Source: Thermococcus celer Vu 13 = JCM 8558 (GTDB taxonomy: Archaea > Methanobacteriota_B > Thermococci > Thermococcales > Thermococcaceae). Taken from it: a DNA stretch of 64,000 bases. The stretch is taken from contig NZ_CP014854.1 of the NCBI RefSeq assembly GCF_002214365.1, positions 434,001 through 498,000 of the forward strand, read 5' to 3'. A program made the translations under genes and the position numbers. The notes under the pieces were generated by a model, which did no database searches, was not told the DNA's origin, and worked only from the letters and a program-made list of their open reading frames with translations. Positions 30,354 to 53,643 of this stretch are shown here, piece after piece (positions within the stretch are counted from its first letter, which is position 1; every line of letters begins with the position of its first letter).

Positions 30354-30503
30354 GTTTTCAACTCCTGCGCCGTGAAGAACCCTTTTTAACATCAGAGGAC
30401 AAACCTGGGGCCCCCATTTTAACCAAACGTTTTAAACCTTTGTTCTTCGTAGGTAACGTTTATAAGCCATTGTTTTGAACCAAAAATTAGCTTCGTTTAA
30501 AAC
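30354..30503 (+). promoter_or_regulatory. mbx operon control region with a perfect extended SurR-type site
   Basis: AACCAAACGTTTTAAAC at 30421-30437 is, on the minus strand, an exact GTTn3AACn5GTT, the extended site described for the sulfur-response regulator SurR of Pyrococcus. Additional GTTn3AAC cores lie at 30354-30362, 30429-30437 (within the full site), 30472-30480 and 30495-30503. TATA-like GTTTATAAG is at 30458-30466, so sites lie on both sides of the core promoter. In Pyrococcus reduced SurR controls hydrogenase and mbx genes. Confidence 0.75.
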
Positions 30504-30543
30504 TCTGTGGAAGCACTTCCATCAACCTGTGGAGGGTTGCCGA

Positions 30544-31050
30544 ATGGGAGAGGCAAGCAAAATAAGCCGCTATCTGTACACGGTTATCGTGCTGTTCCTT
30601 ATATGGCTGTTCCTGACGGCCAGTTTGGACCCGCAGGAGCTGGAAGTTGGCCTGCTGCTGGCACTCATCGTTGGTGCCTTCACCTACGAGATATTCACCA
30701 CCAGCGGCCTCGCGAACCTCCATCCCAGGAGGGTCGTCTACGCCATAGCCTACGTTCCCTACTTCCTGTGGGCCATGATAATGGCGAACCTCGACGTCGC
30801 CTACAGGGTTCTGCATCCCAAGAGACCCATAAACCCGGGGATCGTTGAGTGCAAAACCGTTCTCAAGAGCGACGTGGGAAAGCTCGCCCTCGCGAACTCG
30901 ATAACGCTAACGCCCGGAACCATCACCCTTGACGTCGACGATGACAGGTACTTCATACACTGGATAAACGTCACGGACGACTCCGTTGAGGGCGCGTCCA
31001 TGAACATAACCGCCCCCTTTGAAAAGTTCCTGAAGGTGATCTTCGGATGA
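30544..31050 (+). CDS. mbxA: MbxA, MrpE-like subunit of membrane-bound sulfane-sulfur reductase
   Basis: MrpE-type membrane subunit (168 residues) of the Na+/H+ antiporter half of the MBX/MBS complex. Helices at about residues 10-30, 35-55 and 60-90 are followed by a cytoplasmic domain with VGKLALANSITLTPGTITLDVDDDRYFIHWI (by position about 113-143), diagnostic of MrpE. ATG at 30544 follows GGAGGGTTGCCGA; the frame extends upstream but would run into the control region. First gene of a 13-gene operon in which neighbours overlap by 4 bases (ATGA). Confidence 0.88.
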   Translation: MGEASKISRYLYTVIVLFLIWLFLTASLDPQELEVGLLLALIVGAFTYEIFTTSGLANLHPRRVVYAIAYVPYFLWAMIMANLDVAYRVLHPKRPINPGIVECKTVLKSDVGKLALANSITLTPGTITLDVDDDRYFIHWINVTDDSVEGASMNITAPFEKFLKVIFG

Positions 31051-31301
31051 TAGGGATAAACGTCTACCTCGCCCTGATAGCGATAGCGACGCTCCTCAGC
31101 ATGTACAGGGTCTTCGTGGGTCCCACCACTGCCGACAGGCTCGTCGCGGTTGACATCATGACGACCATAACCACCGGACTAATGGTTCTCTTCGCGCTCT
31201 ACTACAAGCGGATGATATTCCTCGACGTCGCGCTCGTTTACGCCATACTCGCCTTCGGTGGAGTCATAGCCTTCGCGCGCTACATGGAGGGAGGCCTATG
31301 A
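31047..31301 (+). CDS. mbxB: MbxB, MrpF-like subunit
   Basis: Small three-helix MrpF-type subunit, 84 residues, with RVFVGPTTADRLVAVDIMTTI, typical of MrpF/PhaF. It is part of the membrane antiporter module that couples electron transfer to ion (probably Na+) export. Start and stop overlap neighbours through ATGA, indicating translational coupling. Confidence 0.88.
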   Translation: MIGINVYLALIAIATLLSMYRVFVGPTTADRLVAVDIMTTITTGLMVLFALYYKRMIFLDVALVYAILAFGGVIAFARYMEGGL

Positions 31302-31702
31302 ACGCGCTCACGGCCACGGGTGAAGCTCTCGTCCTCATCGGAACGTTCTTCTACTTCCTATCGGCCCTCGGTCTCATCAGGATGCCCGACGTCTACAACA
31401 GGATGCAGACCTCCACCAAGAGCGCCACCCTCGGCTCGCTCGGTGTTATGCTCGGCGTCGGAATCTGGGCTCTCGGAACGGACTTCGGAAACGTCGCCTG
31501 GCTCACCAAGACCATAACCATCGCGATCTTTCTCCTGCTGACCAACCCGATAAGCGCTCACACGCTCATAAGGGCCGCCTACAAGAGCGGCATCCCCCTG
31601 TGGGAGGGCAGTGTAGTTGACAGGTACCGCGAGCACCTCGAGAGCAGGAAGGCAGAGGTTGAAGAAGCGGAGAAAACCCCCGAGGAGGGTGGTGAGGAAT
31701 GA
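31298..31702 (+). CDS. mbxC: MbxC, MrpG-like subunit
   Basis: MrpG-type subunit of 134 residues with three helices. Signature sequence is GLIRMPDVYNRMQTSTKSATLGSLGVMLG, with TNPISAHTLIRAAYKSG following (about residues 84-100). The charged C-terminal tail (about 110-134) is cytoplasmic. Overlaps mbxB and mbxD by 4 bases each. Confidence 0.88.
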   Translation: MNALTATGEALVLIGTFFYFLSALGLIRMPDVYNRMQTSTKSATLGSLGVMLGVGIWALGTDFGNVAWLTKTITIAIFLLLTNPISAHTLIRAAYKSGIPLWEGSVVDRYREHLESRKAEVEEAEKTPEEGGEE

Positions 31703-31983
31703 ACGCGATAGCCATTATCGAGTACCTAATAGTTGGTATAATGATACTCTCCGCGGTACTCGCGGTGGAGTGGAGGGACCTGCTGGCGGCCGCCGTCGGA
31801 ATGGCCGCGGTGAGCCTGTTCGCCTCGATACTGTTCTTCATGTTGCAGGCGCCGGACGTCGCGATGACGGAGGCGGCTATAGGCGCGGCCCTCAGTGCGG
31901 CGGTGTTCATCTTCGCGATAAAGAGAACCCAGCGCTTTGAGACGGAGGAAGAGGAGAAGCCCGGCTGGTGGGTGAGGTGGTGA
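31699..31983 (+). CDS. mbxD: MbxD, MrpB/MnhB-N-like (DUF4040-type) subunit
   Basis: Membrane subunit of 94 residues, three helices, with AVEWRDLLAAAVGMAAVSLFAS and APDVAMTEAAIGAALSAAVFIFAI (positions 16-37 and 52-75), the conserved block found in the MrpA C-terminal region and in MbhD. It is part of the ion-translocating membrane arm. Separated by only 2 bases from mbxF. Confidence 0.85.
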   Translation: MNAIAIIEYLIVGIMILSAVLAVEWRDLLAAAVGMAAVSLFASILFFMLQAPDVAMTEAAIGAALSAAVFIFAIKRTQRFETEEEEKPGWWVRW

Positions 31984-31985
31984 AG

Positions 31986-32693
31986 ATGCTCAAGCGCTCG
32001 CTTGCGATACTCACGCTCCTCATAATCGGCTACTGGCTCGCCCAGGGCCTCGCAGGGGTGCCCTTCGGCCAGGACAGGATGCTCGTCGGACACTACTACC
32101 TCGAGCACGTGAAGGAGCAGACCGGCGCGGTCAACGCGGTAACCGCCATAGTCGTCAACTACCGTGGTTTCGATACGCTCGGTGAGGTCACCGTCCTGTT
32201 CATAGCCTCAACCGGTGTCGCCGCCCTCCTCTGGAGGAAAAAGAAGAAGAGGAGCGCCAAGACTGAGGGCTCTGTGGTCCTCACAACCGGAACGAGACTT
32301 TTGGTTCCCTTCGTGATACTCTTCGGTTCGTACATCTTCATCCACGGGCACCTCACCCCGGGCGGAGGATTCCCCGGTGGAGCCACCATAGCGACGGGCT
32401 TCCTCCTGCTGTACATGGCCTTCACGACCTACGAGATACCCCACAGGGGCTTCGAGAAGACCGAAGGAATCGCCGGAATGAGCTACGTCCTCGTGGGCCT
32501 CATCGGCCTTGGAATAGGCGGTTACTTCCTCTTCGACTGGATATGGCAGACCTGGCAGTTAGGCACTGACAACATCGGCAGGCTGTTCAGCGGCGGCTTC
32601 ATACCGATAATCTACATCCTGATAGGAATCAAGGTCGGCACGGAGCTCAGCGGAATCATCGACAACATGGTGAAGGAGGAGGTGAGCGAATGA
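31986..32693 (+). CDS. mbxF: MbxF, fused MbhE/MbhF-like MrpB subunit
   Basis: Protein of 235 residues. The N-terminal part (about 1-85) resembles MbhE: FDTLGEVTVLFIASTGVAALL. The rest (about 95-235) resembles MrpB/MbhF: GTRLLVPFVILFGSYIFIHGHLTPGGGFPGGATIATGFLL (by position). The two are separate genes in mbh-type operons but one gene in mbx operons, supporting the MBX assignment. ATG at 31986 follows GAGGTGGTGAAG, within the end of mbxD. Confidence 0.88.
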   Translation: MLKRSLAILTLLIIGYWLAQGLAGVPFGQDRMLVGHYYLEHVKEQTGAVNAVTAIVVNYRGFDTLGEVTVLFIASTGVAALLWRKKKKRSAKTEGSVVLTTGTRLLVPFVILFGSYIFIHGHLTPGGGFPGGATIATGFLLLYMAFTTYEIPHRGFEKTEGIAGMSYVLVGLIGLGIGGYFLFDWIWQTWQLGTDNIGRLFSGGFIPIIYILIGIKVGTELSGIIDNMVKEEVSE

Positions 32694-33034
32694 TCAGCGT
32701 CTACTACTTCGGTGCCATCTCGCTCATCCTCATAGGCCTCTACGCCGTCCTCGTCAAGAAGAACCTGCTCAAGATACTCATAGGGCTGAGCATAATGGAG
32801 ACCGGTGTCAACCTTCTCCTCATCAGCATCGGTTACGTCTCGGGGAGGAGCGCACCAATACTGAGCGAGGGGATCGGGCCGAACCAGGCAGTTGACCCGA
32901 TACCGCAGGCCCTCGTCCTCACGGCCATAGTCATAGGCGTAGCAACCACCGCAATGGCCCTTAGCGTCGCCATGCTGATTTACGAGAAGTATGGAACGCT
33001 CAACATCGAGGAGATAAGGAGGTTGAGAGGATGA
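32690..33034 (+). CDS. mbxG: MbxG, MrpC/NuoK-like subunit
   Basis: Three-helix NuoK/MrpC-type subunit of 114 residues with LIGLSIMETGVNLLLISIGYVSG and the conserved DPIPQALVLTAIVIGVATTAMALSVAM (about residues 68-95). Such subunits carry the acidic residues of the proton/sodium path (Glu in IMETG). Overlaps both neighbours by ATGA. Confidence 0.92.
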   Translation: MISVYYFGAISLILIGLYAVLVKKNLLKILIGLSIMETGVNLLLISIGYVSGRSAPILSEGIGPNQAVDPIPQALVLTAIVIGVATTAMALSVAMLIYEKYGTLNIEEIRRLRG

Positions 33035-34518
33035 ACGGACAGTACGCCTCCCTGCTCATAGCTTTGCCTCTCATAAGCGCGTTCTTCGTGCCCCTGATCA
33101 AGGGCGCCGGAAAGAACGCCATCAAGTCATACCTCGTGCTGATAACGGCCCTTCAAACCGGAGTGGCCGCGTGGGTGTTCCAGGAGGTTTACTCCACAGG
33201 GAAGCCGATGATCGTCATGGCGGGTGGCTGGAAACCGCCCGTTGGAATCAACCTCTACATCGGCCACTTCGCGGCGCTGTTCGTGCTGATAGTAGCGGCC
33301 GTCAGCTTCCTGATGGCGATCTTCAGCTTCAAAGCGGTTAACGTCGAGCCGATAGACAAGTACGCCATGCTGTTCCTGCTCCTCATGCTCGGTGCGACGG
33401 GCATGATAGCGACGGGCGATATCTTCAACCTCTTCGTCTTCATGGAGATAACCTCAATCAGCGCCTACGCCCTCACGGCCTACAACAAGACCGGAGAGGC
33501 GGCCGAGGCCTCGATGAAGTACATAGTCCTCGGCGGAATCGGCTCGAGCTTCTTCCTCGTAGGAGTGGCTCTGATCTACGGCGCCCTCGGAACCCTCAAC
33601 ATGGCCCAGATAGCCCAGCTCGCCTCAACGCTGAACCCGACCGTCGCCCAGGTGGGACTGGCGCTGGTAGTCTTCGGCCTGGCGGTTGAAGCCGAGATCT
33701 TCCCGCTCAACGCGTGGGCACCTGACGCCTACCAGGCGGCACCCCACCCGATAACGGTGATGTTCTCGGCCTTCGTCGTCAAAGCGGGCCTCTACGCCAT
33801 GGCCAGGATCGTCTACCTCATGAAGGACGTCGGGAGCTGGAGTTCGATCCTCAAACTGCTCGTCATCCTGGCGACCCTCACGGTCATCGTTGCAGAGCTT
33901 GCCGCACTCAGGCAGAGGAACGTCAAGAGGATGATAGCCTACTCGAGCATATCCCAGATAGGTCTTATCGCCCTCGCCTTCGCTCTCGGAACCCAGAGCG
34001 GCGTCGATGCAGGGGTATTTCACATGATAAACCACGCCATAGTCAAGGCCCTCCTCTTCTTGGCCGTGGGCTACGTTGCGGTGGCCCTCGGTGGGGCGGA
34101 GATGGAGAACTTCAGGGGGCTCGGAAAGAGGATGCCCGTCACGGCCTTCACCATATCCGTTGGCGCCATAGCCACCGTCGGGGTACCGCTGTTCAACATC
34201 TTCTGGAGCAAGATAAGGATAATACTCGCGACGCTCTCGGTCGGCTACACCTGGGCCGCCGCGCTCGTTCTGGCGGCGAGCGTTGTGGAGGCGGTCTATT
34301 ACTTCAGGCTGCTCCACGTCATATGGTTCGAGGGGACCGGCGAGAGGATGCACGAGAACATGGCGATGGGCATCATGTTGCTGTTCCTCGCCGCGCTGGT
34401 TATCGTCATTGGGGTCTATCCAAGCTACGCCTGGAACCTCGCCCAGAAGGCTGGAAACGACATCTTCAACGTCGCCCAGTACGTTAAGAACGTACCACTG
34501 ATGGGGGTGGGAGCATGA
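33031..34518 (+). CDS. mbxH: MbxH, MrpD/NuoN-like antiporter subunit
   Basis: Antiporter-like subunit of about 14 helices (495 residues). The key features are the MEITSISAYAL segment with the functional glutamate, PLNAWAPDAYQAAPHPITVMFSAFVVKAGLYAM and SSISQIGLIALAFALG (about residues 308-323). It is the main ion-pumping element of the membrane arm. An additional homologue (mbxH') follows directly, the arrangement specific to mbx and not mbh operons. Confidence 0.93.
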   Translation: MNGQYASLLIALPLISAFFVPLIKGAGKNAIKSYLVLITALQTGVAAWVFQEVYSTGKPMIVMAGGWKPPVGINLYIGHFAALFVLIVAAVSFLMAIFSFKAVNVEPIDKYAMLFLLLMLGATGMIATGDIFNLFVFMEITSISAYALTAYNKTGEAAEASMKYIVLGGIGSSFFLVGVALIYGALGTLNMAQIAQLASTLNPTVAQVGLALVVFGLAVEAEIFPLNAWAPDAYQAAPHPITVMFSAFVVKAGLYAMARIVYLMKDVGSWSSILKLLVILATLTVIVAELAALRQRNVKRMIAYSSISQIGLIALAFALGTQSGVDAGVFHMINHAIVKALLFLAVGYVAVALGGAEMENFRGLGKRMPVTAFTISVGAIATVGVPLFNIFWSKIRIILATLSVGYTWAAALVLAASVVEAVYYFRLLHVIWFEGTGERMHENMAMGIMLLFLAALVIVIGVYPSYAWNLAQKAGNDIFNVAQYVKNVPLMGVGA

Positions 34519-36359
34519 GCAACGAACTCCTTATCATACTTCTTAGCCCATTAATAGCGGGAGTCCTGGCATGGGTGCTCGATATAAAGGGAGTTAGAGA
34601 ACTCATCGGCCTCGTGGGTGCCGCCGTGCCGGTGGCCTACCTCGCCAAGCTTTACTCAACTGTTACAAATGAGGCCATCACCTATTCGATCAAGGTGAGC
34701 GGTTTCAACCTTGGATTCCAGCTCAACACCATAACCTGGTACTTCGCGGCCATAGCCTCACTCGTGGGGCTCGCGATGGCCCTCGGCATGGTCTCCACCT
34801 CAAAGAGCTCCTACGACTGGCTCTTCGCGCTCATGAGCTACACGGGAGTCCTCGGGGTCTTCCTGAGCCAGGACTTCGTGGGCTTCTTCCTGTTCTGGGA
34901 GATAATGACCTTCGCCAGCTTCATGATGGTCCTCAAGAGGAACAGGCACGAGTCACTAAAGTACTTCGTGCTGAGCGTCATTGGAGCCTACTCGATGCTG
35001 ATAGCGATAGGCATCCTGTACGCCAAGACCGGAGCCCTCGACTTCGCCACGATAGGCAAAGTTCTCTACATGGACGCGAGCCTCGGAACGATAGGCACCG
35101 GTGAAACGGCCCTCATCTTCGGGCTGTTGCTTGCGGCCTTCGGTGTCAAGGCGGGTATGTTCCCGCTCTATGTCTGGGCACCGGGAGCGTACAGCGAGAA
35201 CGACCAGAGCTACACCGCCTTCTTCAGCGGCGTCCTCAGCAAAGCCGGGGTCTACGGTTTCCTCCTGCTCTACATGCTTATGTTCTACAAACTCTACGCG
35301 GCCCTGGGGACGTTCCACGGACACATGACGTTCGCGTACATAATAGCCTGGCTGGGCGCCATAACCGTCGTGGTGGCGAGCTTCCTCGCGGTTCTCCAGG
35401 AGGATATCAGGAAGCTCTTCGCCTACTCGTCCATCGGGCAGGTCGGTTACATACTGCTCGCCTTCGGAATCGGAAGTGGCCTCGGCTTCGCTGGAGGTCT
35501 CTTCCACGTGCTCAGCCACGCGGTCTTCAAGGGCCTCTTCTGGCTGGTGACCGCGGCCATAATCCTCAGGACTGGAAAGACCCAGTTCAAGGACATGGGC
35601 GGCCTCGCCGAGAAGATGCCCTACACGTTCGCGATGGGCATGATAGCGGTCCTGAGCCTCGCGGGCATCCCCCCGATGGCGGGCTTCGCGAGCAAGTGGC
35701 TCATCTACGAGGCGGCCATAAGCGCCCACATGCCGCTCGTCGCTGGTTCAATATTCCTCGGAAGCGCCCTGGCCTTCGCCTACGTCGTCAGGTTCCTCTA
35801 CGCCGTCTGGTTCGGCCAGAGGCCAAGCGACCTTGAGGACGTTAAGGAAGCTCCACTCCCGCTCCTGATAGCCATGACGGTACTCGCCATCCCGAACGTG
35901 CTCTTCGGTGTTGCACCGGGAATTGTCACGGGGTACATCAACAAGATGCTCGGAGGAGAAGTCGTTACCGGCAACTACTACAAGCTGGTCACGCCCACGG
36001 GAACCTACAACGCCCTGCTCATAGCGATAGTCCTTGTAATCGGTTTAGCCATAGCCGGGCTTGTATACCTCTACGGGGCAAAGGTGAGGAAGATAAAGGT
36101 GACGAACACCTATCAGTCGGGTAACCCGGTCACCGAGGAGTTCAACCTCAGCATCAGGAAGAACTTCTACAGGCCGCTGGCAGAGGCCCTCGGTTTCTGG
36201 CTCAGGTACAGCTGGGACAGGTTCTACGAGCGCCTTGCCGGTGTGGTGGAGGATTTCGCGGATACGCTGAGGGAGAGTTCCTACAACGGCAACGTCCAGA
36301 GCTACTCGTGGTACCTCGCGATAATACTGCTGATACTCGCGCTGTGGGGGGTGTTGTGA
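34515..36359 (+). CDS. mbxH': MbxH', second MrpD/NuoL-like antiporter subunit
   Basis: Second antiporter-like subunit, 614 residues. It has FWEIMTFASFMMVLKRN, PLYVWAPGAYSENDQSYTAFFSGVLSKAGVYGFLLLY (about 217-253), SSIGQVGYILLAFGIG, and a longer C-terminal extension (about residues 490-614) with additional helices, as in NuoL-type subunits with a lateral helix. Duplication of H distinguishes MBX/MBS from MBH. Stop and the next start abut (TGAATG). Confidence 0.93.
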   Translation: MSNELLIILLSPLIAGVLAWVLDIKGVRELIGLVGAAVPVAYLAKLYSTVTNEAITYSIKVSGFNLGFQLNTITWYFAAIASLVGLAMALGMVSTSKSSYDWLFALMSYTGVLGVFLSQDFVGFFLFWEIMTFASFMMVLKRNRHESLKYFVLSVIGAYSMLIAIGILYAKTGALDFATIGKVLYMDASLGTIGTGETALIFGLLLAAFGVKAGMFPLYVWAPGAYSENDQSYTAFFSGVLSKAGVYGFLLLYMLMFYKLYAALGTFHGHMTFAYIIAWLGAITVVVASFLAVLQEDIRKLFAYSSIGQVGYILLAFGIGSGLGFAGGLFHVLSHAVFKGLFWLVTAAIILRTGKTQFKDMGGLAEKMPYTFAMGMIAVLSLAGIPPMAGFASKWLIYEAAISAHMPLVAGSIFLGSALAFAYVVRFLYAVWFGQRPSDLEDVKEAPLPLLIAMTVLAIPNVLFGVAPGIVTGYINKMLGGEVVTGNYYKLVTPTGTYNALLIAIVLVIGLAIAGLVYLYGAKVRKIKVTNTYQSGNPVTEEFNLSIRKNFYRPLAEALGFWLRYSWDRFYERLAGVVEDFADTLRESSYNGNVQSYSWYLAIILLILALWGVL

Positions 36360-37253
36360 ATGGTCAACTGGATGCTCAGCCTTGAGGTCATTGGGATACT
36401 GATCTACGCCACCATCGTGGGATTCATATTCATGGGTATCGAGAGGAAAGCGATGGCGAGGATACAGCGCCGCGTCGGACCGCCCATTTACCAGCCGATA
36501 ATAGACACCCTCAAACTGCTCGGAAAGAAGGAGAGCGTGAGCCACGGCATCATCTACGACTTTGGACCGGTGTTCGCCCTCGGGGCCACCATCCTCGCGC
36601 TCCTCTTCCTCCCCATCGCGAACTTCAGGCTCTTCAGCACCAACGCCGATTTGATAGTCGTGGCCTACCTCCTCGAGGTGCCGATGCTCGGAATAATGCT
36701 GGGTGCCATGAGCTCAGGCAACCCCTACTCCGCCCTCGGTGTTCAGCGTGGCCTGCTCACCATGGTGGCTATGCAGCTGCCCTACGGTCTGGCTTTAATA
36801 GCCCTCGTCCAGCACTGGGGAACCTTCAAGCTTAACGAGCTGGTGGCGCTCCAGCAGGCCCACGGGTGGAGCATCCTGGTTCCGGCACTGTTCCTTGCCA
36901 TGATAGTCTTCGACATAGTCTTCCAGGCGATGCTGGGCCTCGAGCCCTTCGACATCATAACAGCCCCGGCGGAAATCTCCATGGGTCCGATGGTCGAGTA
37001 CGGCGGCAAGCATGCGGCCCTGCTCTTCACCCAGCACGCGGTTCAGCTCTTCGCGGAGACGGCGTTCTTTACAATACTCTTCCTCGGCGGTGCAAGCAAC
37101 CTCCTCGAGCTCTTCATCAAACAGCTGGCGGTGCTCTTCATAGCGATATTCGTGGCCAGCATCTACCCGAGGTTCACCATCGACCAGGCCGCGAAGTTCT
37201 TCTGGAAGTGGCCGACGATACTCGGAATAATAGCCGTCCTGTTGACGATGTGA
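36360..37253 (+). CDS. mbxM: MbxM, NuoH-like membrane subunit
   Basis: Homologue of complex I NuoH and MbhM (297 residues, about 8 helices), which links the peripheral redox arm to the membrane arm. Conserved GIERKAMARIQRRVGPPIYQPIIDTLKLLGKK lies at about residues 24-56, with FDIVFQAMLGLEPFDIITAPAEISMGPMVEYGGKHAAL at about 180-222 (by position). Its position before mbxJ, instead of near the operon end, is the mbx order. Confidence 0.92.
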   Translation: MVNWMLSLEVIGILIYATIVGFIFMGIERKAMARIQRRVGPPIYQPIIDTLKLLGKKESVSHGIIYDFGPVFALGATILALLFLPIANFRLFSTNADLIVVAYLLEVPMLGIMLGAMSSGNPYSALGVQRGLLTMVAMQLPYGLALIALVQHWGTFKLNELVALQQAHGWSILVPALFLAMIVFDIVFQAMLGLEPFDIITAPAEISMGPMVEYGGKHAALLFTQHAVQLFAETAFFTILFLGGASNLLELFIKQLAVLFIAIFVASIYPRFTIDQAAKFFWKWPTILGIIAVLLTM

Positions 37254-37263
37254 GGTGATGTGG

Positions 37264-37863
37264 ATGGGCGAGATGGAGAATAGGAAGAATGACGGGTTCA
37301 TCAGCTACGAACTCCAGGAGTTCAAGGTCTTCGAGCCCCTGTTCAGGTGGGCGAGGAAGAAGAGCCTCTGGATAGTGGCATTCTGTACGGGCTGCGGCGG
37401 TATCGAGATGCCGCCCTTAGCTACCGCCCGCTACGACTTCGAGCGCTTCGGAATAATGCCCAATCCGGCTCCGAGGATGGCTGACCTGTTCCTCATCACG
37501 GGCTACGTGACGCCGAAGACCCTCAAGAGAATCATCATCACCTACGAGATGATGCAGGACCCCAAGTACGTCCTGGCCCACGGCTCGTGCCCGATAAACG
37601 GCGGCGTCTACTGGGACTCCTACAACGTTGTGAAGCAACTTGACAAGTACATTCCCGTTGATGTCGTGATAGCGGGTTGCATGCCCAGACCGGAAGCGGT
37701 AATGGACGGAATAACCGAGATAATGCGCAAGATAGAGGACGGAACCGCTGACGGGTGGAAGAGGTACAGGGAGAACTACGAGTGGTATAGGAAGAACCAG
37801 GACGAGCTCTTTGGAGAAGGCTGGCGTGAGAGGGAAGCCAGGAGGTGGCTGGCATGGATATGA
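37264..37863 (+). CDS. mbxJ: MbxJ, small (NuoB-like) Fe-S subunit
   Basis: NuoB/small-hydrogenase-type subunit (199 residues) carrying the proximal [4Fe-4S] cluster. Cysteines C41 and C44 (FCTGCGG), C109 (HGSCPING) and C139 (AGCMPRPE) form the cluster site. In the solved MBS complex this cluster is placed at the site of sulfane-sulfur reduction. ATG at 37264 follows GAGGTGATGTGG; earlier in-frame GTG/ATG codons overlap that site. Confidence 0.92.
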   Translation: MGEMENRKNDGFISYELQEFKVFEPLFRWARKKSLWIVAFCTGCGGIEMPPLATARYDFERFGIMPNPAPRMADLFLITGYVTPKTLKRIIITYEMMQDPKYVLAHGSCPINGGVYWDSYNVVKQLDKYIPVDVVIAGCMPRPEAVMDGITEIMRKIEDGTADGWKRYRENYEWYRKNQDELFGEGWREREARRWLAWI

Positions 37864-38423
37864 ACGAGAAGCCGAAGGTCGAGGAGAAGGTTGAGGAGGT
37901 CCCGAAGCTTCCCGACACGAAGGAAGGTAAACTGGTCGCCGAGATACTCGAGAAGGCTCCCTACGTGGAAGGAAGTGTTAAACGCGAGAGGCGCGTTGAG
38001 TTCAAGGTCCCCGCGGACAGGATAAAGGAGTTCCTCGAGGTCGCAAGCGGGAAGTTCGAGATGCTCATGCAGATAAGCGTCGTCGACTGGCTCAAGGAGG
38101 GGGAGTTCGAGCTCGTATACCAGCTGTGGAGCGTAAGCGAAAGCGTCCACGCCTTCGTGAGGACGAGGATACCGAGGGAGAACGCCAGGATGCCCACGGC
38201 CATGGGCATCTGGCCGGTGGCGGAGACCTACGAGAGGGAGGCGCATGAGTTCTTCGGGATAATCTTCGAGGGCAACCCGAGGCTCGGTCCCTTCATCCTT
38301 GAACCGAGGGAGTACGAGAAGCACCCGCTCAGGAAGGACTTCAACATGCTGGGCTACGTCAAGGCTATTTACGGCGAGGATTTCGACAGGTACGATGAGA
38401 GCAAGACCAACTACGTGATATGA
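37854..38423 (+). CDS. mbxK: MbxK, NuoC-like subunit
   Basis: NuoC/MbhK-type peripheral subunit (189 residues). A charged N-terminal extension (about 1-40) precedes the conserved domain with LKEGEFELVYQLWSVSESVHAFVRTRI and the signature WPVAETYEREAHEFFGIIFEGNP (by position about 122-145), ending with LRKDFNM. It braces the J-L subunits. ATG at 37854 has GGAGGTGG upstream and overlaps the end of mbxJ by 10 bases. Confidence 0.9.
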   Translation: MDMNEKPKVEEKVEEVPKLPDTKEGKLVAEILEKAPYVEGSVKRERRVEFKVPADRIKEFLEVASGKFEMLMQISVVDWLKEGEFELVYQLWSVSESVHAFVRTRIPRENARMPTAMGIWPVAETYEREAHEFFGIIFEGNPRLGPFILEPREYEKHPLRKDFNMLGYVKAIYGEDFDRYDESKTNYVI

Positions 38424-38433
38424 GGTGGTGATC

Positions 38434-39618
38434 ATGGCGAATTTGGAAGTCCCGAGGGAACTTAAGGAAGAGGCAAAGGCGCACGACATGTACCTTCATC
38501 CGATAGACAAAGACACCTACGAGCTGTTCTTCGGTCCGCAGCACATGGCCACCGAGAACTTCAGCATAATCCTCAAGATGGACGGGAACAGGATTGAGAA
38601 GGCCATCGTCAACCCCGGCTTCCTTCACAGGGGCTTTGAAAAGCTGGCCGAGCAGAGACCGTACTTCACCAACATCGCCCTCCTCCTCCGTATATGCGTT
38701 CCGGAGAGCGACGTTCCCGAGAACATCTACTCCATGGCCGTCGACGAGATAGTCGGCTGGGAGGTTCCTGAGAGGGCGCAGTGGATAAGGACGACCGTCC
38801 TCGAGATGGCGAGGATGAGTGCGTGGATGTTCTGGATAATGGGCTTTGGAAACGAGATAGGCCTCTACACCGCCGGACAGTGGGCGGCCGCTTACCGTGA
38901 GAGGTTCATGCGCCTGTACGAGGAACTCACCGGTGGAAGGGTCTACCACATCTACACGGTCCCCGGCGGCGTCAGGAGGGACATACCGGGCGACAGGTGG
39001 CTCAGGCAGCTCCGCGACACCGTTGAGTACATCAGGTCCAAGCTCAAGGACTTCGACGAGATACTCTTCGACAACTACATCACCTTCGCGAGGACGGAGG
39101 GCGTCGGTGTAATGGACAGGAAGTTCGCGCTGAAGCACGCGGTGACCGGGCCAAACCTCCGCGCCACGGGCGTTCCCTATGATGTCAGGAAGGACGACCC
39201 CTACCTCCTTTATCCGGAGCTCGAGTTCGAGGTCCCGGTTCTGAAGGAGGGAGACAGCCTCGCGAGGGTTCTCGTGAGGAGGTACGAGATGGAGCAGGAT
39301 CTCTACATCCTGGAGCAGCTCCTCGACATGGGGCCGCCCAGCGGGCCCTACATGGTGAAGGACGCGAGACTCAAGGCATTGCCGAGGTTCAGACCACCTA
39401 AAGGGGAGGCCTACGCCCATGTCGAGAGCACCAAGGGCGATTTCGGAGCGTACGTGGTCAGCGATGGGACGCACAAGCCCTACCGCGTCCACATCCGCGG
39501 CCCGAGCCAGAGCCACGGCGTTACCGTGCTTGAAGAGCTCCTGAAGGGAGCGCGCCTCGCGGACGTGCCGGTCATACTGAAGACCCTCGACAACTGTCCG
39601 CCGGACATAGACAGGTGA
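38434..39618 (+). CDS. mbxL: MbxL, NuoD/hydrogenase-large-subunit homologue lacking half of the NiFe cysteines
   Basis: Homologue of hydrogenase large subunits and complex I NuoD (394 residues). Conserved GFLHRGFEKLAEQRPYF and VPGGVRRDIPGDRW are present. True hydrogenases have two CxxC pairs; here only two cysteines exist in the whole protein: Cys88 in LLLRICVPESDV and Cys388 in the terminal LDNCPPDIDR. This excludes a NiFe centre and matches the MBX/MBS type, which reduces polysulfide instead of protons. ATG at 38434 follows GGTGGTGATC. Overlaps mbxN through GTGATG. Confidence 0.93.
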   Translation: MANLEVPRELKEEAKAHDMYLHPIDKDTYELFFGPQHMATENFSIILKMDGNRIEKAIVNPGFLHRGFEKLAEQRPYFTNIALLLRICVPESDVPENIYSMAVDEIVGWEVPERAQWIRTTVLEMARMSAWMFWIMGFGNEIGLYTAGQWAAAYRERFMRLYEELTGGRVYHIYTVPGGVRRDIPGDRWLRQLRDTVEYIRSKLKDFDEILFDNYITFARTEGVGVMDRKFALKHAVTGPNLRATGVPYDVRKDDPYLLYPELEFEVPVLKEGDSLARVLVRRYEMEQDLYILEQLLDMGPPSGPYMVKDARLKALPRFRPPKGEAYAHVESTKGDFGAYVVSDGTHKPYRVHIRGPSQSHGVTVLEELLKGARLADVPVILKTLDNCPPDIDR

Positions 39619-39623
39619 TGAAG

Positions 39624-40280
39624 ATGGAGAGCGTTGAGAAGCCCAAGGTTAGGGTCGTCGGCGAGGAGAAGGTCAGGCTCAAGAAGTCATTCGTAAAGCC
39701 GTGGATGGGCGTAAAGTACCTCTTCAAGAAGCCGGTCACCATAAAGATACCCTTCGAGAAGATAGAACCGGCACCGAAGTACAGGGGATTCCACACCCTT
39801 GACTGGAAGAAGTGCGTCGGCTGTAACTTCTGCGGCCAGATATGCCCCGCAAGGGCCATCGAGATGACGTGGATCGAAGGGGAGAAGAGGCCGCATCCAA
39901 AGATAGACTACGGAAGGTGCACGTTCTGCCAGTTCTGCGTTGACGTGTGCCCGACCGGGGCTCTGGGGTTCAGCGAGAACTACTACCTCACCACCGGCGG
40001 CTTCGAGGAGGACCTGGAGCTCTACGACTGGGTGCCGATAAACCCGAACAAGGTAAAGGAGCTCAACGAGAAGTTCAGAGACTACCGCTTCCCGGTCGAG
40101 AGGATCGAGAAGCGCGAGGACGGCACCCGCATCTACCGCCTGCGCGACGGAGAGAAGATAGAGTTCAAGGTACTCGGCTACGGCATCAGACCGCCGAAGA
40201 AGCCGACACCGACAAAACCCGCAAAAACGGCCGAGAAAAAAGACGAAACGTCCGCAAAGACCGAAGGAAAGAAGGAGTGA
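39624..40280 (+). CDS. mbxN: MbxN, NuoI-like 2[4Fe-4S] ferredoxin subunit
   Basis: NuoI/MbhN-type subunit (218 residues) passing electrons from ferredoxin to the MbxJ cluster. Two cluster motifs: CVGCNFCGQICPAR and CTFCQFCVDVCPTG, eight cysteines in all. An N-terminal amphipathic region and a Lys/Thr/Pro-rich C-terminal tail (about 185-218) are seen. ATG at 39624 follows AGGTGATGAAG. Last gene of the operon; the T-rich stretch after 40281 is a probable terminator. Confidence 0.93.
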   Translation: MESVEKPKVRVVGEEKVRLKKSFVKPWMGVKYLFKKPVTIKIPFEKIEPAPKYRGFHTLDWKKCVGCNFCGQICPARAIEMTWIEGEKRPHPKIDYGRCTFCQFCVDVCPTGALGFSENYYLTTGGFEEDLELYDWVPINPNKVKELNEKFRDYRFPVERIEKREDGTRIYRLRDGEKIEFKVLGYGIRPPKKPTPTKPAKTAEKKDETSAKTEGKKE

Positions 40281-44478: not shown

Positions 44479-44521
44479 ATTTAAAAGATTATCAATAAAT
44501 CAGCAAAAATGGTGGTAAATA

Positions 44522-46059: not shown

Positions 46060-46075
46060 TCACACCCGTATTATG

Positions 46076-47437: not shown

Positions 47438-47449
47438 TTTATCACCTTC

Positions 47450-47526: not shown

Positions 47527-47546
47527 AAAAGGAACGGTGATAAAAG

Positions 47547-48282: not shown

Positions 48283-48669
48283 ATGAGGACCAACGCCTTC
48301 GAGGTGGCCTCGCGCTACGTTTACCCCTCGCTGAGAAGGAGACTCGTCGAGATACTCCGCGAGAAGGGGCTCAAACAGGTAGAGATAGCGGAGTTGCTCC
48401 ACATAACCCAGTCCGCCGTTTCTCGATACCTCGGGATGGACAGGGGCGCGCTGGTGGACGTTTCCCGATACCCCGATATAGACGGGGAACTCCGGTCTCT
48501 CGTGGAGGAGGTCATCGAGAGAAAGCCCGATGAATACTATATTCACAGGCGTTTGGTTGAGATCTCCCTGGAGATGCTCGGAAAGGGTTACGTCTGCTCT
48601 TTCCACTCAAAGATCGACCCCGAGGTAAACCCCGAGGAGTGCCGCGTCTGCCTCGAACTTTTCGGGTGA
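48283..48669 (+). CDS. HTH transcription regulator (COG2522-like) with C-terminal cysteines
   Basis: A 128-residue predicted regulator: N-terminal RYVYPSLRRRLVEILREKGLK with HTH LKQVEIAELLHITQSAVSRYLGMDRG (about residues 26-52 by position), then a helical linker and a Cys-containing tail GYVCSFHSKIDPEVNPEECRVC that could bind metal or Fe-S. ATG at 48283 lies about 25 bases after TATA-like CTTAAATATT with no ribosome binding site, so the message is probably leaderless. The 250 bases upstream hold no other gene. Confidence 0.75.
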   Translation: MRTNAFEVASRYVYPSLRRRLVEILREKGLKQVEIAELLHITQSAVSRYLGMDRGALVDVSRYPDIDGELRSLVEEVIERKPDEYYIHRRLVEISLEMLGKGYVCSFHSKIDPEVNPEECRVCLELFG

Positions 48670-48740
48670 TCTAAGTCCCCTCGGCCCGGCTAAGACAAAG
48701 TTTAATACGTTTTGAGGAGATTCTCAATGAGGTGGTTGAA

Positions 48741-49553: not shown

Positions 49554-49563
49554 GATGGTGCCG

Positions 49564-50124
49564 GTGAAGCGCTTTATGGCTTTCTTTTTATCGACCCTTT
49601 TAATGGCCCCGCTCGTCATGGCGGAGGGTGAAGGAGAGCTGGAGGCGGGATACGGAGGACTGACCGCCCTCGGGGTGGGCCTCATAGCGGTTGGCGTGGT
49701 CTATTACTCGCTGACGAAGCGGAAGCTCCTTATAGTCCACAAAAAGTCAAGCGAGTGGGGATTTGAGATAAGACCCGCCCATCCCTACGTAACGGTGTTC
49801 GGTCCCGTTTATCCCATCACCATTCACCACTTCCTCACGATAACGGGGACGCTGCTGGCCTTCGTCCACTTCCTCTCATCCCCCACGTACAGCGGACTCC
49901 GCGGGGGCACGGGTCTGGGTATGGCCATTCTCCTGATACTCCTGAACCTGAGCGGTTTCTTCGGTAGATACGTCTACGGAAGGATTCTCATCGCGGCAAA
50001 GAAGCACGACAGGAGGAAGGCAAGGAGGTTCGTCGGGCTGCTGGGCTACTGGAAGACGGTCCATACGGCCCTTGCCGTCCTGTTTGCGATACTGCTGGCG
50101 GTGCACCTCGCAATCGGGGATTGA
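49564..50124 (+). CDS. Four-helix membrane protein with cytochrome-b-like HX13H pairs
   Basis: Predicted signal sequence (MKRFMAFFLSTLLMAPLVMA) and four further helices. Helix 2 (ITIHHFLTITGTLLAFVHFL) and helix 4 (VHTALAVLFAILLAVHLAIG) each hold two histidines separated by exactly 13 residues. Two HX13H helices in a four-helix bundle is the heme-ligand pattern of di-heme b-type cytochromes and ferric reductases. The short loops include basic KKHDRRKARR. Start choice (GTG 49564 after GGTG; ATG 49555 or 49576 are alternatives) is uncertain. Heme binding is inference; no heme-synthesis genes are in this window. Thioredoxin and CcdA genes follow. Confidence 0.6.
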   Translation: MKRFMAFFLSTLLMAPLVMAEGEGELEAGYGGLTALGVGLIAVGVVYYSLTKRKLLIVHKKSSEWGFEIRPAHPYVTVFGPVYPITIHHFLTITGTLLAFVHFLSSPTYSGLRGGTGLGMAILLILLNLSGFFGRYVYGRILIAAKKHDRRKARRFVGLLGYWKTVHTALAVLFAILLAVHLAIGD

Positions 50125-50192
50125 CTTCGATGAGGCTCCCTTCATAGAATCCTTTTAAATTCCCATGAGTTCCGTTATTCGGGGGTGAGGGT

Positions 50193-50543
50193 ATGGACGA
50201 GCTCGAGATGATACGGAGAAAGAAGATGCTTGAACTCATGAAGAGGGCGGGAATGATCGAGGAGAAGCCAAAGGGGCCCAAAGTCGTCATCGAAGTTATA
50301 ACGTCGCCCGGCTGTCCTTACTGCCCGATAGCCTGGGCAATGGCTCAGGAACTCGAGAGGAAATACAAAGGGGTCGTGGCGAGGGAACTGAGCGTTGCGA
50401 CGCCGGAAGGCCGGAGGAAGGCGATGGAGCACAACATCCTTGGAACGCCGACGATACTCATAGACAACCGCGTGGAGTTCGTGGGGGTGCCTAACTTCGG
50501 GGAGTTCGAAAGGCGGGTGAGGGAAAAGCTTGGCCTAAGGTGA
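50193..50543 (+). CDS. Thioredoxin/glutaredoxin-like protein with CPYC active site
   Basis: Thioredoxin-fold protein of 116 residues. The redox motif CPYC is at residues 41-44 (SPGCPYCPIAW), with the cis-Pro motif in LGTPTILIDN. An unusual charged N-terminal helix (MDELEMIRRKKMLELMKRAGM) precedes the fold. It probably exchanges electrons with the CcdA-type membrane protein encoded convergently, whose stop overlaps its end by 9 bases. ATG at 50193 follows GGGGTGAGGGT. Confidence 0.85.
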   Translation: MDELEMIRRKKMLELMKRAGMIEEKPKGPKVVIEVITSPGCPYCPIAWAMAQELERKYKGVVARELSVATPEGRRKAMEHNILGTPTILIDNRVEFVGVPNFGEFERRVREKLGLR

Positions 50544-51263
50544 CGCCCCCGAGAGAACCCAGAGGCCTATGGCCACCAGCAGGGCTCCGGCCACAACCGA
50601 GAGCTCCCTGCTCCTCCTCACCATCGCCTGGGAAAAGCGCTTGCTCTCGGTTACGCTCCCCATCGCCAGCAGTATGACGACCAACGGAAGGACAAAGACC
50701 ACGTTGTAGAGGGCGAGGAGGAGGAAAGCGAGCGCCTTCCCGGTCCGCGAGATTATTATCGCGTAGACGAGGTAGCTACCAGCGGAGCACGGCAGGAGGG
50801 TGGTCGAAACTATAACCCCCAGCGTGAAGGCCCCCAAGGCCGTTGCATCGCTCCTGAACATCCTCCTTCTGATCTCACCTTTATCCCCGATGCGGGAGCG
50901 CTCCATCAGGCCCGTGACCATCGTGTATAATCCAAAGGCTACCGCCGCTATTCCCGCGACCCAGAGGGGGAGATGGCCGGCGAAGTAGAGCAGGCCGACG
51001 CCGAGAAGGTAGTAGGAGACGTAAACGGCCAGGATAAAGGCGGCGCCGATGAGGTAAAGCCGTCCCTTCGACACCTCCCTGACTGAGAGCGCTATGAGGA
51101 GCATCGTGTATATCACGAAGGTGCAGGGGTTAATGGAGTCGCTCAGGGCCAGGGCGAAGAACTTGGGGATAAATCCCACCATCCCGAGGAGGTAGAGCGC
51201 GAGCGAGCCCACTCCAAAGGATGCCAGAAGGATAATCGCCAGTCCCTTCACCTCGGCCTTCAT
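50535..51263 (-). CDS. ccdA: CcdA/DsbD-type transmembrane thiol-electron transporter
   Basis: Membrane protein of 242 residues with six predicted helices. CcdA-type redox cysteines are Cys47 in LSDSINPCTF and Cys159 in STTLLPCSAGSY, which shuttle electrons from cytoplasmic thioredoxin to the outside of the membrane. The adjacent convergent thioredoxin-like gene and the upstream heme-pattern protein fit a small membrane redox module. A perfect SurR-type site (51311-51327) lies 48 bases upstream of its start. Confidence 0.87.
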   Translation of the reverse strand: MKAEVKGLAIILLASFGVGSLALYLLGMVGFIPKFFALALSDSINPCTFVIYTMLLIALSVREVSKGRLYLIGAAFILAVYVSYYLLGVGLLYFAGHLPLWVAGIAAVAFGLYTMVTGLMERSRIGDKGEIRRRMFRSDATALGAFTLGVIVSTTLLPCSAGSYLVYAIIISRTGKALAFLLLALYNVVFVLPLVVILLAMGSVTESKRFSQAMVRRSRELSVVAGALLVAIGLWVLSGASP

Positions 51264-51310
51264 GAGGGTCAGTTATCGCCGGGTCTTTTTGTGGATTTCG
51301 AGAACAAAAA

Positions 51311-51327
51311 GTTGGAAACGAAAGGTT
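51311..51327. promoter_or_regulatory. Perfect extended SurR-type site between ccdA and the OsmC gene
   Basis: GTTGGAAACGAAAGGTT equals GTT-N3-AAC-N5-GTT exactly. It lies 48 bases before the ccdA start (minus strand) and 170 bases before the OsmC-type gene, so ccdA is the likelier target. In Pyrococcus the redox-switch regulator SurR binds such sites when reduced and releases them when sulfur oxidises its CxxC. Confidence 0.7.
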
Positions 51328-51331
51328 AGCG

Positions 51332-51376
51332 CCGTTTCCTCCGTAGAGGCGTGAAACGGGGGCGAGAGAAGCCCCC
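51332..51376. other. Pair of strong hairpin-forming inverted repeats
   Basis: Hairpin 1: CCGTTTC (51332-51338) with GAAACGG (51353-51359), the loop containing a CTC/GAG inner pairing. Hairpin 2: GGGGGC (51358-51363) with GCCCCC (51371-51376) around GAGAGAA. The two compete for two G residues. They lie in the ccdA/osmC spacer, next to the SurR-type site. Could be a structured RNA, a leader element or a protein site. Confidence 0.5.
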
Positions 51377-51496
51377 AGAAAGTCTCCTTCCAATCCCACC
51401 GAAGCACTACCTGAAATTCTTCAAGGTCTGTTTACGGACCACCTGATTCCGGTAAGTCTTTTATAGAAGCCAGCTTCAATTGTCCCGGTGGGAACC

Positions 51497-51907
51497 ATGG
51501 AGAGACTCGAATACAAAGCGGAACTCGAATGGGACGGAAACGTGGGAAGCGAGGCCAGGGTCAGGGAATTTGCCTTTTTCATAGATACGAACACCGATGG
51601 GAACAACAGGGGTCCGAACCCGACGGAGATGCTCCTCTCCGCTATCGGTGGATGTTTGATGGTCAACTGGGGGAGGCTCATTAAGAAAATGCGGCTCGAT
51701 GTTAAAGCCCTGAACGTTGAAGTTAGGGGGTGGCGCGGCTTAGAAGAGCCTCAGCTGAAGGAGATTACTTATAAAATAACCATAACCACGGGAGAAGACG
51801 AGAAGAAGATTCTAAGGGTGAAGGAACTCGCCGAGAAGTACGGGACCGTGTTCAACACGGTTGGGGCGGAGAAGATAAAGGGGGAAGTTGAGATAGTCCG
51901 GCCTTGA
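51497..51907 (+). CDS. OsmC/Ohr-family protein
   Basis: OsmC-like protein of 136 residues (family of thiol peroxidases acting on organic hydroperoxides). It has NRGPNPTEMLLSAIGGCLMVNWGRLIKKM with one cysteine at the usual peroxidatic position. The second conserved Cys of Ohr/OsmC (in the C-terminal helix) is replaced, with TVFNTVGAEKIKG in that place. A single-Cys member may act differently. ATG at 51497 follows GGTGGGAACC; TATA-like TCTTTTATAG is at about 51458. Convergent with the smsB gene. Confidence 0.82.
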   Translation: MERLEYKAELEWDGNVGSEARVREFAFFIDTNTDGNNRGPNPTEMLLSAIGGCLMVNWGRLIKKMRLDVKALNVEVRGWRGLEEPQLKEITYKITITTGEDEKKILRVKELAEKYGTVFNTVGAEKIKGEVEIVRP

Positions 51908-51912
51908 TCCCC

Positions 51913-52863
51913 TCATCCCCTTAAAAGGCCCTCGATTATCAACTCCGCCGCCTCGTCCTCGGTTAATCCCTTCGCCATGAGCTGAACGAGCTGGGCCTCG
52001 TTTATCCTGCCTATCGATGCCTCGTGGGTGAGCTCCGCCTTGTCGTTCCTCACCCTGAGGAGGGGTATCGTCTGGACGTCCGCGTTTCCCTTCACCACCT
52101 CGTGGCACTCCACGTGCCCCTTTGCGTAGTCACCAATGCCGTAGGCCTCGTTTATCACGTTTGCCTTTGCATCGTCAAAGGCTATAACGGTGCTCTTCAG
52201 GTTTGCTCTGGAGGATTTCCCGTTGAGGCGGGCTATCTCTTTTACCTCGACGGAGTCGTCCTTAACGGCCTTTATCTTCGAGACGAGCTCGGCAACGGCG
52301 TAATCATCGAGGTTAACGTTCATCTCGAGCTTGAGTTCCTTCGCGCGGTGTTTGCTCAGGGAGAACCTTCCGACGTACCCTCCTTTCTTCCCGACCTCCA
52401 CATCGGTCCTGCTTATCATCCTGACGCCCTCGCCGTGAACGTGCTCGTCCTCGTAAATAACAGTCGAACCCTCGCCGATTTTAATCGTGGCGTAGGCATC
52501 GTGGGTGAAGTCTTTGGCGTAGGGGAAGATGCAGTGCGAGAGGAACTTAACTTTTGAGTTCTTTCCGGTGGTTATATCAAAAATCACCCTCTGATAGCCC
52601 TCGTTCTTCAGGAAGCCGGTGCAGAGATGTACCGGGAAGGGGAGCTCAATGTTATCATCGATCTTCACAGTCGCCTTGACGCCGTCCTCTATCTCCTCGC
52701 CGACTATCTCAACACCCTCAACGTTGTTCACTCCAAGTATTTTGTCCCCGCTGATTATTATCGCCGCTATCCTGTTCCCAAAGAGGGAGGTATCCAGGCC
52801 CTCATTCTCGTAAACCTCGACCAGGGCCTCGTACTCCTTCACCCTATCCATCTTAATGACCAT
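51913..52863 (-). CDS. smsB: SufB/SufD-family scaffold protein of a minimal SUF-like (SMS) system
   Basis: A short SufBD-core protein (316 residues) with the beta-helix region and C-terminal AELTHEASIGRINEAQLVQLMAKGLTEDEAAELIIEGLL (about residues 275-312), the family's most conserved part. It lacks the long N-terminal domain of SufB. With the overlapping ATPase gene it forms a two-gene pair like the archaeal minimal SmsCB, proposed to build Fe-S clusters without SufD. It overlaps the smsC stop by 11 bases. A separate SufBCD operon is encoded at 57948-61199. Confidence 0.85.
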   Translation of the reverse strand: MVIKMDRVKEYEALVEVYENEGLDTSLFGNRIAAIIISGDKILGVNNVEGVEIVGEEIEDGVKATVKIDDNIELPFPVHLCTGFLKNEGYQRVIFDITTGKNSKVKFLSHCIFPYAKDFTHDAYATIKIGEGSTVIYEDEHVHGEGVRMISRTDVEVGKKGGYVGRFSLSKHRAKELKLEMNVNLDDYAVAELVSKIKAVKDDSVEVKEIARLNGKSSRANLKSTVIAFDDAKANVINEAYGIGDYAKGHVECHEVVKGNADVQTIPLLRVRNDKAELTHEASIGRINEAQLVQLMAKGLTEDEAAELIIEGLLRG

Positions 52864-53578
52864 CTCTCATCCCTTCCAGAAGCGGACATTTTCCACATGC
52901 CCTCTTGTAGTACTCAACGACCTCCTCAGAAAACCCTTTCCGCACAACCCTTCCCCCGCAGAGGAAGTAGCTGAAGTCGGTTTTCCTTGCGATTTCCTCG
53001 TGGTGCGTGATCAGAATCACCGTCGTGCCCGTCTTCTTCAAATATCTCAGGGTTCTGTCTATCAAATCACTCGCAGTTATATCCAGTCCTGAGTCAGGTT
53101 CGTCGAGGATGGCGTACCGCGGTTTCAAAAGCAGGATAGAGGCGAGCTCGATCCTTTTCCTCTCCCCTCCGCTGAGCCCCTTGTCCACGAATCTGCGGAG
53201 GTAGAGGTCATAGGACAGCCCAACTATCTCAAAGACTTTCCTCAATTCATCCTCAGTCACTTTCAGCTTTTCCCCGAGGGTGAGGTATTCCCCGACGGTT
53301 ATCCCTTCATAGCGGGCCGGTTCCTGCCAGAGTAAAGAAATCCCAAGTTTGGCTCTCTCCGTCACACCCAGATCGGTGATGTCCCTCCCATCGAGCAGAA
53401 CCTTTCCCTCGCTCGGCTTAATTACCCCCATGAGGATGCGGGCTATTGTGGATTTCCCGGCCCCGTTGGGCCCCAGAATGGAATAGCTCATGCCCTCCTT
53501 GAATTGCATGTTAACCTCGTCGACTATCCGCCTGCCGTCTATGGAGTAGGTAACGTTTCTGAGGATCAGCATATCCAT
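52853..53578 (-). CDS. smsC: SufC-like ABC ATPase of the minimal SUF-like pair
   Basis: ABC-type ATPase of 241 residues without a membrane domain. Walker A is GPNGAGKST, signature LSGGERKRIELA, Walker B YAILDEPDSGLDI, H-loop ITHHEEI. The GGERKR signature and DEPDSGLD are SufC hallmarks. A Cys-containing tail RACGKCPLLEGM is unusual for SufC. ATG at 53578 has no ribosome binding site but TATA-like ATTTAAAAC about 25 bases upstream, suggesting a leaderless message. It is divergent from the mini-HdrA gene across a perfect SurR-type site. Confidence 0.87.
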   Translation of the reverse strand: MDMLILRNVTYSIDGRRIVDEVNMQFKEGMSYSILGPNGAGKSTIARILMGVIKPSEGKVLLDGRDITDLGVTERAKLGISLLWQEPARYEGITVGEYLTLGEKLKVTEDELRKVFEIVGLSYDLYLRRFVDKGLSGGERKRIELASILLLKPRYAILDEPDSGLDITASDLIDRTLRYLKKTGTTVILITHHEEIARKTDFSYFLCGGRVVRKGFSEEVVEYYKRACGKCPLLEGMRDGH

Positions 53579-53626
53579 CAATACGTTCTCATATGAAGAG
53601 GGTTTTAAATGTTTGGAAAGCCCCCG

Positions 53627-53643
53627 GTTGGGAACCTTCGGTT
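53627..53643. promoter_or_regulatory. Perfect extended SurR-type site in the smsC/mini-HdrA divergent promoter
   Basis: GTTGGGAACCTTCGGTT equals GTT-N3-AAC-N5-GTT exactly. It lies 49 bases upstream of smsC and 66 bases upstream of the mini-HdrA gene, between their TATA-like elements (CATTTAAAAC on the minus strand near 53605-53614; AATTTTTAAAC on plus near 53665). A single bound regulator could control both directions. Confidence 0.72.

Follow-up and report, generated by a model that had tools for sequence, protein, structure and literature searches.

SurR, typified by PF0095, is the thiol-switch regulator of the Thermococcales; the core targets of its known regulon are mbx, mbh, the soluble hydrogenase, pdo/surR and nfn, and its control of mbx in Pyrococcus is reportedly established. 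SurR sites upstream of the TATA box activate and sites downstream repress, both sometimes being needed, according to the consulted portion of PMC12162507. Among sulfur-related systems of the same order, the consulted part of PMC12442378 describes the characterised SmsCB of T. kodakarensis as TK0730/TK0731. A 64,000-nt window of Thermococcus celer (positions 434001–498000 of the single-contig genome of 1,866,819 bases) carries intergenic matches to an extended SurR motif that are very probably real predicted SurR operators, judging by the motif and its conservation. The reading preferred here, which is probable as a whole, is that in the absence of sulfur these operators would repress mbx and activate ccdA-like, SufC-like/SufBD-core and mini-HdrA/ferredoxin genes.

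Two patterns were sought by exact matching, the long SurR motif GTTn3AACn5GTT and the short SurR motif GTTn3AAC. The window contains five long motifs where 0.15 are expected, a number reached in 0 of 100 shuffles, and the SurR pattern is the only one of 3,780 letter permutations with at least three intergenic matches in the window (it has four).

30421–30437, minus strand: long motif, intergenic, upstream of mbx (mbs)
51303–51319, minus strand: long motif oriented toward the ccdA-like gene, in a register that promoter comparison finds conserved in relatives
51311–51327, plus strand: overlapping mirror copy of the long motif
53627–53643, plus strand: long motif between two divergent promoters and, by the promoter matrix, upstream of both
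54196–54212, minus strand: fifth long motif, inside the ferredoxin coding sequence

The second and third of these overlap as a mirror pair, AACn5GTTn3AACn5GTT. An earlier reading made from the letters of the window, here called the sequence-only reading, had reported three exact sites, all intergenic; its coordinates are all correct, its count omitted the mirror copy at 51303–51319 and the ferredoxin copy at 54196–54212, and the intergenic location applies to four of the five matches. Its expectation of one match per approximately 130 kb for a nine-base motif is arithmetically right, and the shuffles and permutations agree with its view that a chance origin is unlikely.

The genome encodes SurR beside pdo (NF047699, 394 bits, cut-off 250); the nearest PDB chain is PF0095, whose CMEC aligns with the CTEC (CxxC) switch motif found here. 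Over the whole genome there are 30 exact long motifs at 24 places, compared with 10 matches for the reversed pattern. They precede pdo/surR, hypF, hypC, hypA, a NikMN-like transporter, the soluble hydrogenase, mbx, mbh and two nfn operons, and further an FmdE/NifX-like pair, CstA and a CMD-family (AhpD-like) gene (PF02663, PF02554, PF02627); the NifX-like assignment comes from a match of PF02579 to a relative's protein in locus L067, and the names of proteins near genomic motifs were read from sequence unless a family search is cited. Ten genomes of the genus, this one included, contain 19–40 long motifs versus 2–20 for the reversed control; the corresponding numbers in six genomes of the same class, from outside the family, are 1–12 and 5–24. 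SurR scores above cut-off in 8/8 family genomes tested and in 0/6 of the same-class genomes outside the family; enrichment of the long motif tracks SurR presence over the genomes tested. T. celer is thus like the known regulon in regulator family, motif and core targets, and differs from it in the predicted members added, namely the ccdA-like gene, the SufC-like/SufBD-core and mini-HdrA/ferredoxin pairs and, outside the window, a sactipeptide cluster.

The mirror pair lies between a ccdA-like gene and a divergent OsmC gene.

50535–51263, minus strand: CcdA-like polytopic membrane protein, 242 aa, with invariant Cys47 and Cys159
51286–51301, minus strand: BRE/TATA-like element (BRE, B recognition element) of ccdA, following the SurR site at a gap of 1 nt, matrix score 8.1
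51497–51907, plus strand: OsmC family protein, divergent from ccdA (PF02566, E 1.1e-19)

The ccdA-like gene is present in 57 of 61 genus genomes. The promoter set (n = 56), from which G036 (fragments) and G041, G046, G049 and G053 (no match) were left out, shows the exact long motif in 52, one mismatch in three and no motif in one; the maximum in 2,000 letter shuffles was 15. In genus g3 the motif is exact in 5/8 ccdA promoters and has one mismatch in the other 3/8 (G063, G070 and G093 were left out of the set from outside the genus). Since the starts of distant ccdA genes were extrapolated from tblastn, the motif offsets of −69 to −91 are in part due to differing N-termini. Many relatives have, directly upstream of ccdA, a gene for a glutaredoxin-fold protein that bears a CGP-CTERM signal; in T. 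celer this gene is gone and OsmC stands in its place, with the SurR site kept. The sequence-only reading had named ccdA and thioredoxin as the target of this site. The former adjoins the site and stands; the thioredoxin gene (50193–50543, plus strand) is convergent with ccdA and outside its unit, hence not downstream of the SurR site, and was rejected. OsmC, on the other flank, was set aside as a firm target: the gene begins 170 bp from the site and SurR control is doubtful because it has its own TATA (score 10.1) approximately 125 bp away.

Like the CcdA/DsbD thiol-electron transporters, the CcdA-like protein crosses the membrane several times and has an invariant cysteine in either half, and in relatives its gene adjoins that of a glutaredoxin-fold surface protein; unlike them, it has no match in Pfam (E 1), NCBIfam (0.001) or PDB sequences (10). 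Its structure model had a predicted local distance difference test (pLDDT) score of 53 and was set aside. The name ccdA rests on the neighbourhood and on two invariant cysteine motifs (Cys47 in DSINPC and Cys159 in TTLLPCSAGSY, 13/13 proteins); the identity is presumptive.

The site at 53627–53643 separates a SufC-like operon from the mini-HdrA/ferredoxin pair. The SUF genes farther along the window are listed together with the first of these.

53602–53617, minus strand: BRE/TATA element of the SufC-like gene, matrix score 12.0
52853–53578, minus strand: SufC-like ATPase, 241 aa, called smsC in the sequence-only reading (PF00005; TIGR01978 153.8 bits, cut-off 212.8)
51913–52863, minus strand: short SufBD-core protein, 316 aa, formerly called smsB (PF01458, E 2e-18; NF052511 (SmsB) 69.8 bits, cut-off 650)
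57948–59054: SufD-like protein, 147.3 bits, cut-off 222
59051–60478: SufB, 626.5 bits, cut-off 346.4
60456–61199: SufC, 299.7 bits, cut-off 212.8

PF01458 and PF00005 are above cut-off in the pair at 51913–53578. The naming as smsCB fails on the SmsB and SufC scores listed, and the short SufBD-core protein also scores low against SufB (57.7 of 346.4 bits) and SufD (58 of 222 bits). By its profile matches the pair is a second SufC-like/short SufBD-core pair, not SmsCB. It resembles TK0730/TK0731 in joining an ABC ATPase and a SufBD-core partner in one operon, and differs in that the partner has 316 aa against the 445 positions of the SmsB model, of whose cut-off it falls far short. Most genus relatives have a 450–520-residue protein of SufB/SmsB type, a weak match to the short SufBD-core protein, which was not found in T. 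celer.

The SufC-like gene is patchy, occurring in 40/94 family genomes (E 1e-60), and where it occurs its promoter usually carries the exact motif: 37/43, comprising 21/24 in the genus, 2/2 decayed copies and 14/17 in other genera (loci L085 and L086, where no gene is left, were excluded). One of 2,000 letter shuffles reached this count, with 35/41, presumably because shuffling can restore the true pattern. In the aligned promoters the motif columns are invariant by construction, the rows having been chosen for the exact motif; the alignment is informative for the flanking BRE, TATA and CATATG. The short SufBD-core gene survives as broken remnants at loci L082 (G047), L084 (G029), L085 (G014) and L086 (G007), and at two of them the SurR-marked SufC-like promoter is kept.

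CATATG elements at 53590–53595 and 53655–53660 flank the SurR site and are conserved in SufC-like promoters of relatives, most of which, unlike T. celer, also have a TGGAC-N6-GTCCA dyad between the SurR site and the BRE. These elements may be signs of a second regulator at the iron-sulfur locus. TTCANNTGAA was rejected as a second regulon motif: it occurs at 17 genomic places versus 8 for its reversed control, and these places do not include either CATATG of the smsC region. The further dyads, together with a second, weak SurR-model match in the genome (44.8 bits), would suit the alternative that the sites serve a different regulator of ArsR type that shares the motif, or reflect conserved promoter architecture without SurR binding. 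That alternative is improbable, given that the same motif stands at surR/pdo, hyp, the soluble hydrogenase, mbx, mbh and nfn in this genome and that its enrichment follows SurR from genome to genome.

On the other side of the site lies the second divergent unit.

53659–53674, plus strand: BRE/TATA element of the HdrA-N-domain gene, matrix score 12.6
53709–54080, plus strand: stand-alone HdrA N-terminal-domain protein (mini-HdrA), 123 aa, named from its predicted fold
54087–54293, plus strand: ferredoxin carrying two 4Fe-4S motifs; tandem arrangement with mini-HdrA

Mini-HdrA has no family match and only a weak phmmer match to PDB (E 0.74). Its single-sequence model (pLDDT 75) bears out the name given in the sequence-only reading: the best seven Foldseek matches are all HdrA (E 3.3e-6 to 1.1e-4, Z 11.7–13.6), and the matches below these seven (Z ≤7.7) were dismissed as common Rossmann-like arrangements. 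It thus shares the N-terminal-domain fold of heterodisulfide reductase HdrA and, unlike full HdrA (~650 residues), consists of that domain only, followed by a small ferredoxin. Mini-HdrA is found in 5/61 genus genomes, with the exact long motif upstream in 4/5; in G057 and G034 a DGC-domain gene (PF08859 in G057) separates it from the SufC-like gene, and each of the two has a motif copy to itself.

The mbx promoter is crowded with four copies of the short motif, including the following.

30354–30362, plus strand: short motif in the mbx intergenic region
30472–30480, plus strand: short motif directly past the TATA-like TTTATAAG (30459–30466), a repressor-type place
30495–30503, plus strand: short motif closer to the mbx start
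30544–40280, plus strand: mbx (mbs) operon, first gene at 30544 (gene calls; name by sequence reading)

The short site after the TATA-like sequence fits SurR repression of mbx, as expected. TTTATAAG was read by eye; the BRE/TATA matrix, trained on 111 upstream regions of which some were later scored with it, missed the readable TATA boxes of mbx, pdo and surR.

The gap between SurR site and BRE is 1 nt at ccdA, hypF, hypC, the NikMN-like gene, the CMD-family gene, the sactipeptide precursor and nfn1; the second-best matrix placement gives the soluble hydrogenase beta gene the same gap. In relatives it is 0–1 nt in 41/52 ccdA promoters and 9 nt (the mirror register) in 5/52, and it is 13–16 nt in 34/37 SufC-like promoters. 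The sites of the ccdA-like, SufC-like and mini-HdrA genes thus lie upstream of BRE/TATA, so that under the published position rule activation by reduced SurR is predicted, and therefore lower expression of these genes with sulfur. This is the opposite of the sulfur-induced role that the sequence-only reading had given the new targets.

The converse direction is rather unlikely: that reduced SurR represses the new targets and sulfur de-represses them, making thiol export and iron-sulfur assembly sulfur-induced like mbx and pdo. It gains from nfn1, which has the same upstream geometry and appears under negative control in the portion of PMC8595942 seen, and from the SufBD-domain proteins TON_0849/0850 of T. 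onnurineus, which are up on sulfur versus CO (TON_0849 4.26-fold) in the data consulted from PMC4463584, although these may be the main SUF proteins and not the SufC-like/SufBD-core pair. It loses in that no site lies downstream of TATA at the ccdA-like, SufC-like or mini-HdrA genes. In the same excerpt of PMC4463584, TON_0530/0531, taken by name only as the probable SufC-like counterpart, have a proteome ratio on sulfur of 0.74–0.92 (p 0.27–0.41), and suf genes of Pa. pacificus are slightly down on sulfur in the source material seen.

Several findings weigh against the preferred reading of activation by reduced SurR at upstream operators. The first is nfn1 itself, with the 1-nt geometry of ccdA under negative control, so that the position rule is not absolute; nfn1 has an extra short site downstream of TATA, which ccdA lacks. 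Secondly, 0/20 additional regions have the long motif; 19 of these come from genera g4 and g5, ahead of the thioredoxin-like/ccdA unit (in which ccdA directly follows the thioredoxin-like gene with no gap), and the ccdA-SurR link is therefore not family-wide. The remaining points concern chance matches in AT-rich promoter DNA. One window motif, 54196–54212, is intragenic; it was rejected as an operator for that position and is probably a chance match. The short motif is not significantly enriched in the window (15 versus 10.0 expected, 7/100 shuffles as high). The 24 genomic places divide into 17 intergenic, one ambiguous and six overlapping genes after hand correction of 54196, so that, as to the genome scan proposed in the sequence-only reading, the motif is not as frequent within genes as in promoters; places of the reversed control are themselves mostly intergenic (4/6), which makes location alone weak evidence. 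(The gene caller, a simple codon-usage script that missed the ferredoxin gene, the sactipeptide maturase and the true mbh and mini-HdrA starts, counted 19/24 intergenic because of the missed ferredoxin gene and because no gene was called near C1:4758.) Set against the window shuffles, the uniqueness among permutations and the conservation of the motif in dozens of promoters at near-fixed spacing, chance is scarcely credible as a general explanation; it is largely refuted for the ccdA and SufC-like promoters and likely still for 54196.

From the observed sites, regulator gene, enrichment, conservation and geometry we infer SurR binding, its direction and its physiological role as follows. SurR would act as a thiol switch at the intergenic sites. 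At mbx, sites flanking and downstream of TATA would let reduced SurR repress; at the ccdA-like and the divergent SufC-like/mini-HdrA promoters, reduced SurR upstream of BRE/TATA would recruit the transcription machinery. When sulfur is absent, the ccdA-like, SufC-like/SufBD-core and mini-HdrA/ferredoxin genes would be expressed alongside the hydrogenase genes, and sulfur would oxidise the CxxC of SurR, release it and lower target expression. The ccdA-like protein may serve outward transfer of thiol reductant, and the iron-sulfur genes accessory Fe-S assembly for hydrogen metabolism. The sequence-only proposal of SurR control at three places thus survives in part: it is favoured by the encoded SurR, by motif enrichment in the ten genus genomes and by conservation of the ccdA and smsC sites, and the thioredoxin target, the SmsCB name and the role induced by elemental sulfur fall away. 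A membrane thiol-redox gene and iron-sulfur genes probably join the hydrogen side of the SurR switch.

The new targets would be additions to an already known regulon, and some may already stand in a reportedly order-wide SurR survey of 2017. The ccdA gene is unmentioned in the SurR literature on Thermococcales that was searched, a search outside which the 2017 survey lies. A term search of PMC12713403 returned no SurR terms.

Outside the window, a further SurR motif precedes a sactipeptide cluster.

C1:1151087–1151299: SurR motif and sactipeptide precursor region
C1:1151165–1151299: subtilosin-A-like sactipeptide precursor, 45 residues (PF11420, PDB 1pxq)

The precursor matches PF11420 (59.5 bits, cut-off 25, E 3.6e-16) and PDB 1pxq, subtilosin A (E 6.5e-12), and is followed by a radical SAM maturase (PF04055, 91.3 of 29.5 bits); both exceed their Pfam cut-offs, as expected of a subtilosin A-type sactipeptide. 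The cluster is like those of subtilosin A in having a precursor and a radical SAM protein, the latter scoring far under the cut-off of the AlbA model here (178.6 of 850 bits). Downstream, a membrane protein, an ABC ATPase and a permease (putative transporter genes) were read from sequence. The cluster occurs in 3/94 family genomes (loci L024, L214 and L215), with the exact long SurR motif 78–95 bases upstream in 3/3; no paper pairing "subtilosin" with "Thermococcus" was found in the literature searched.

Other genomic places were observed in passing. The long motif at C1:424205–424221 (L013) lies between the FmdE- and NifX-like genes, where there is also a TGTGCATATGCACA palindrome, and at nine loci of relatives (L032, L039, L067, L068, L071, L073, L075, L085 and L086) it lies between or beside NifX-like and SLAC1/TehA-like genes. 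A long-motif mirror pair at C1:4758–4782 (L001) falls in a stretch of 38% G+C where no gene was called. Triple overlapping matches of the reversed pattern at C1:52642–52672 and 790712–790742 fall within TTTG/CAAA repeats that are palindromic, and may represent a repeat or a different operator.

A broader proposal, plausible and still tentative, is that in hydrogen-producing growth reduced SurR also turns on an outward thiol-reductant path, the accessory SufC-like/SufBD-core Fe-S assembly and stand-alone HdrA-domain/ferredoxin pairs and, in some species, the sactipeptide cluster. The near-fixed spacing between site and promoter would provide a simple rule for reading activation off sequence, and the directional prediction is testable in a genetically tractable genus. 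A well-studied archaeal redox switch would extend beyond electron-flow enzymes to Fe-S supply and the thiol chemistry of the surface, and the SurR-linked cluster would connect a candidate antimicrobial peptide with the sulfur/hydrogen switch. If this is true, a single sulfur-sensing switch links the energy mode with thiol chemistry at the cell surface and with a candidate bacteriocin of archaea.

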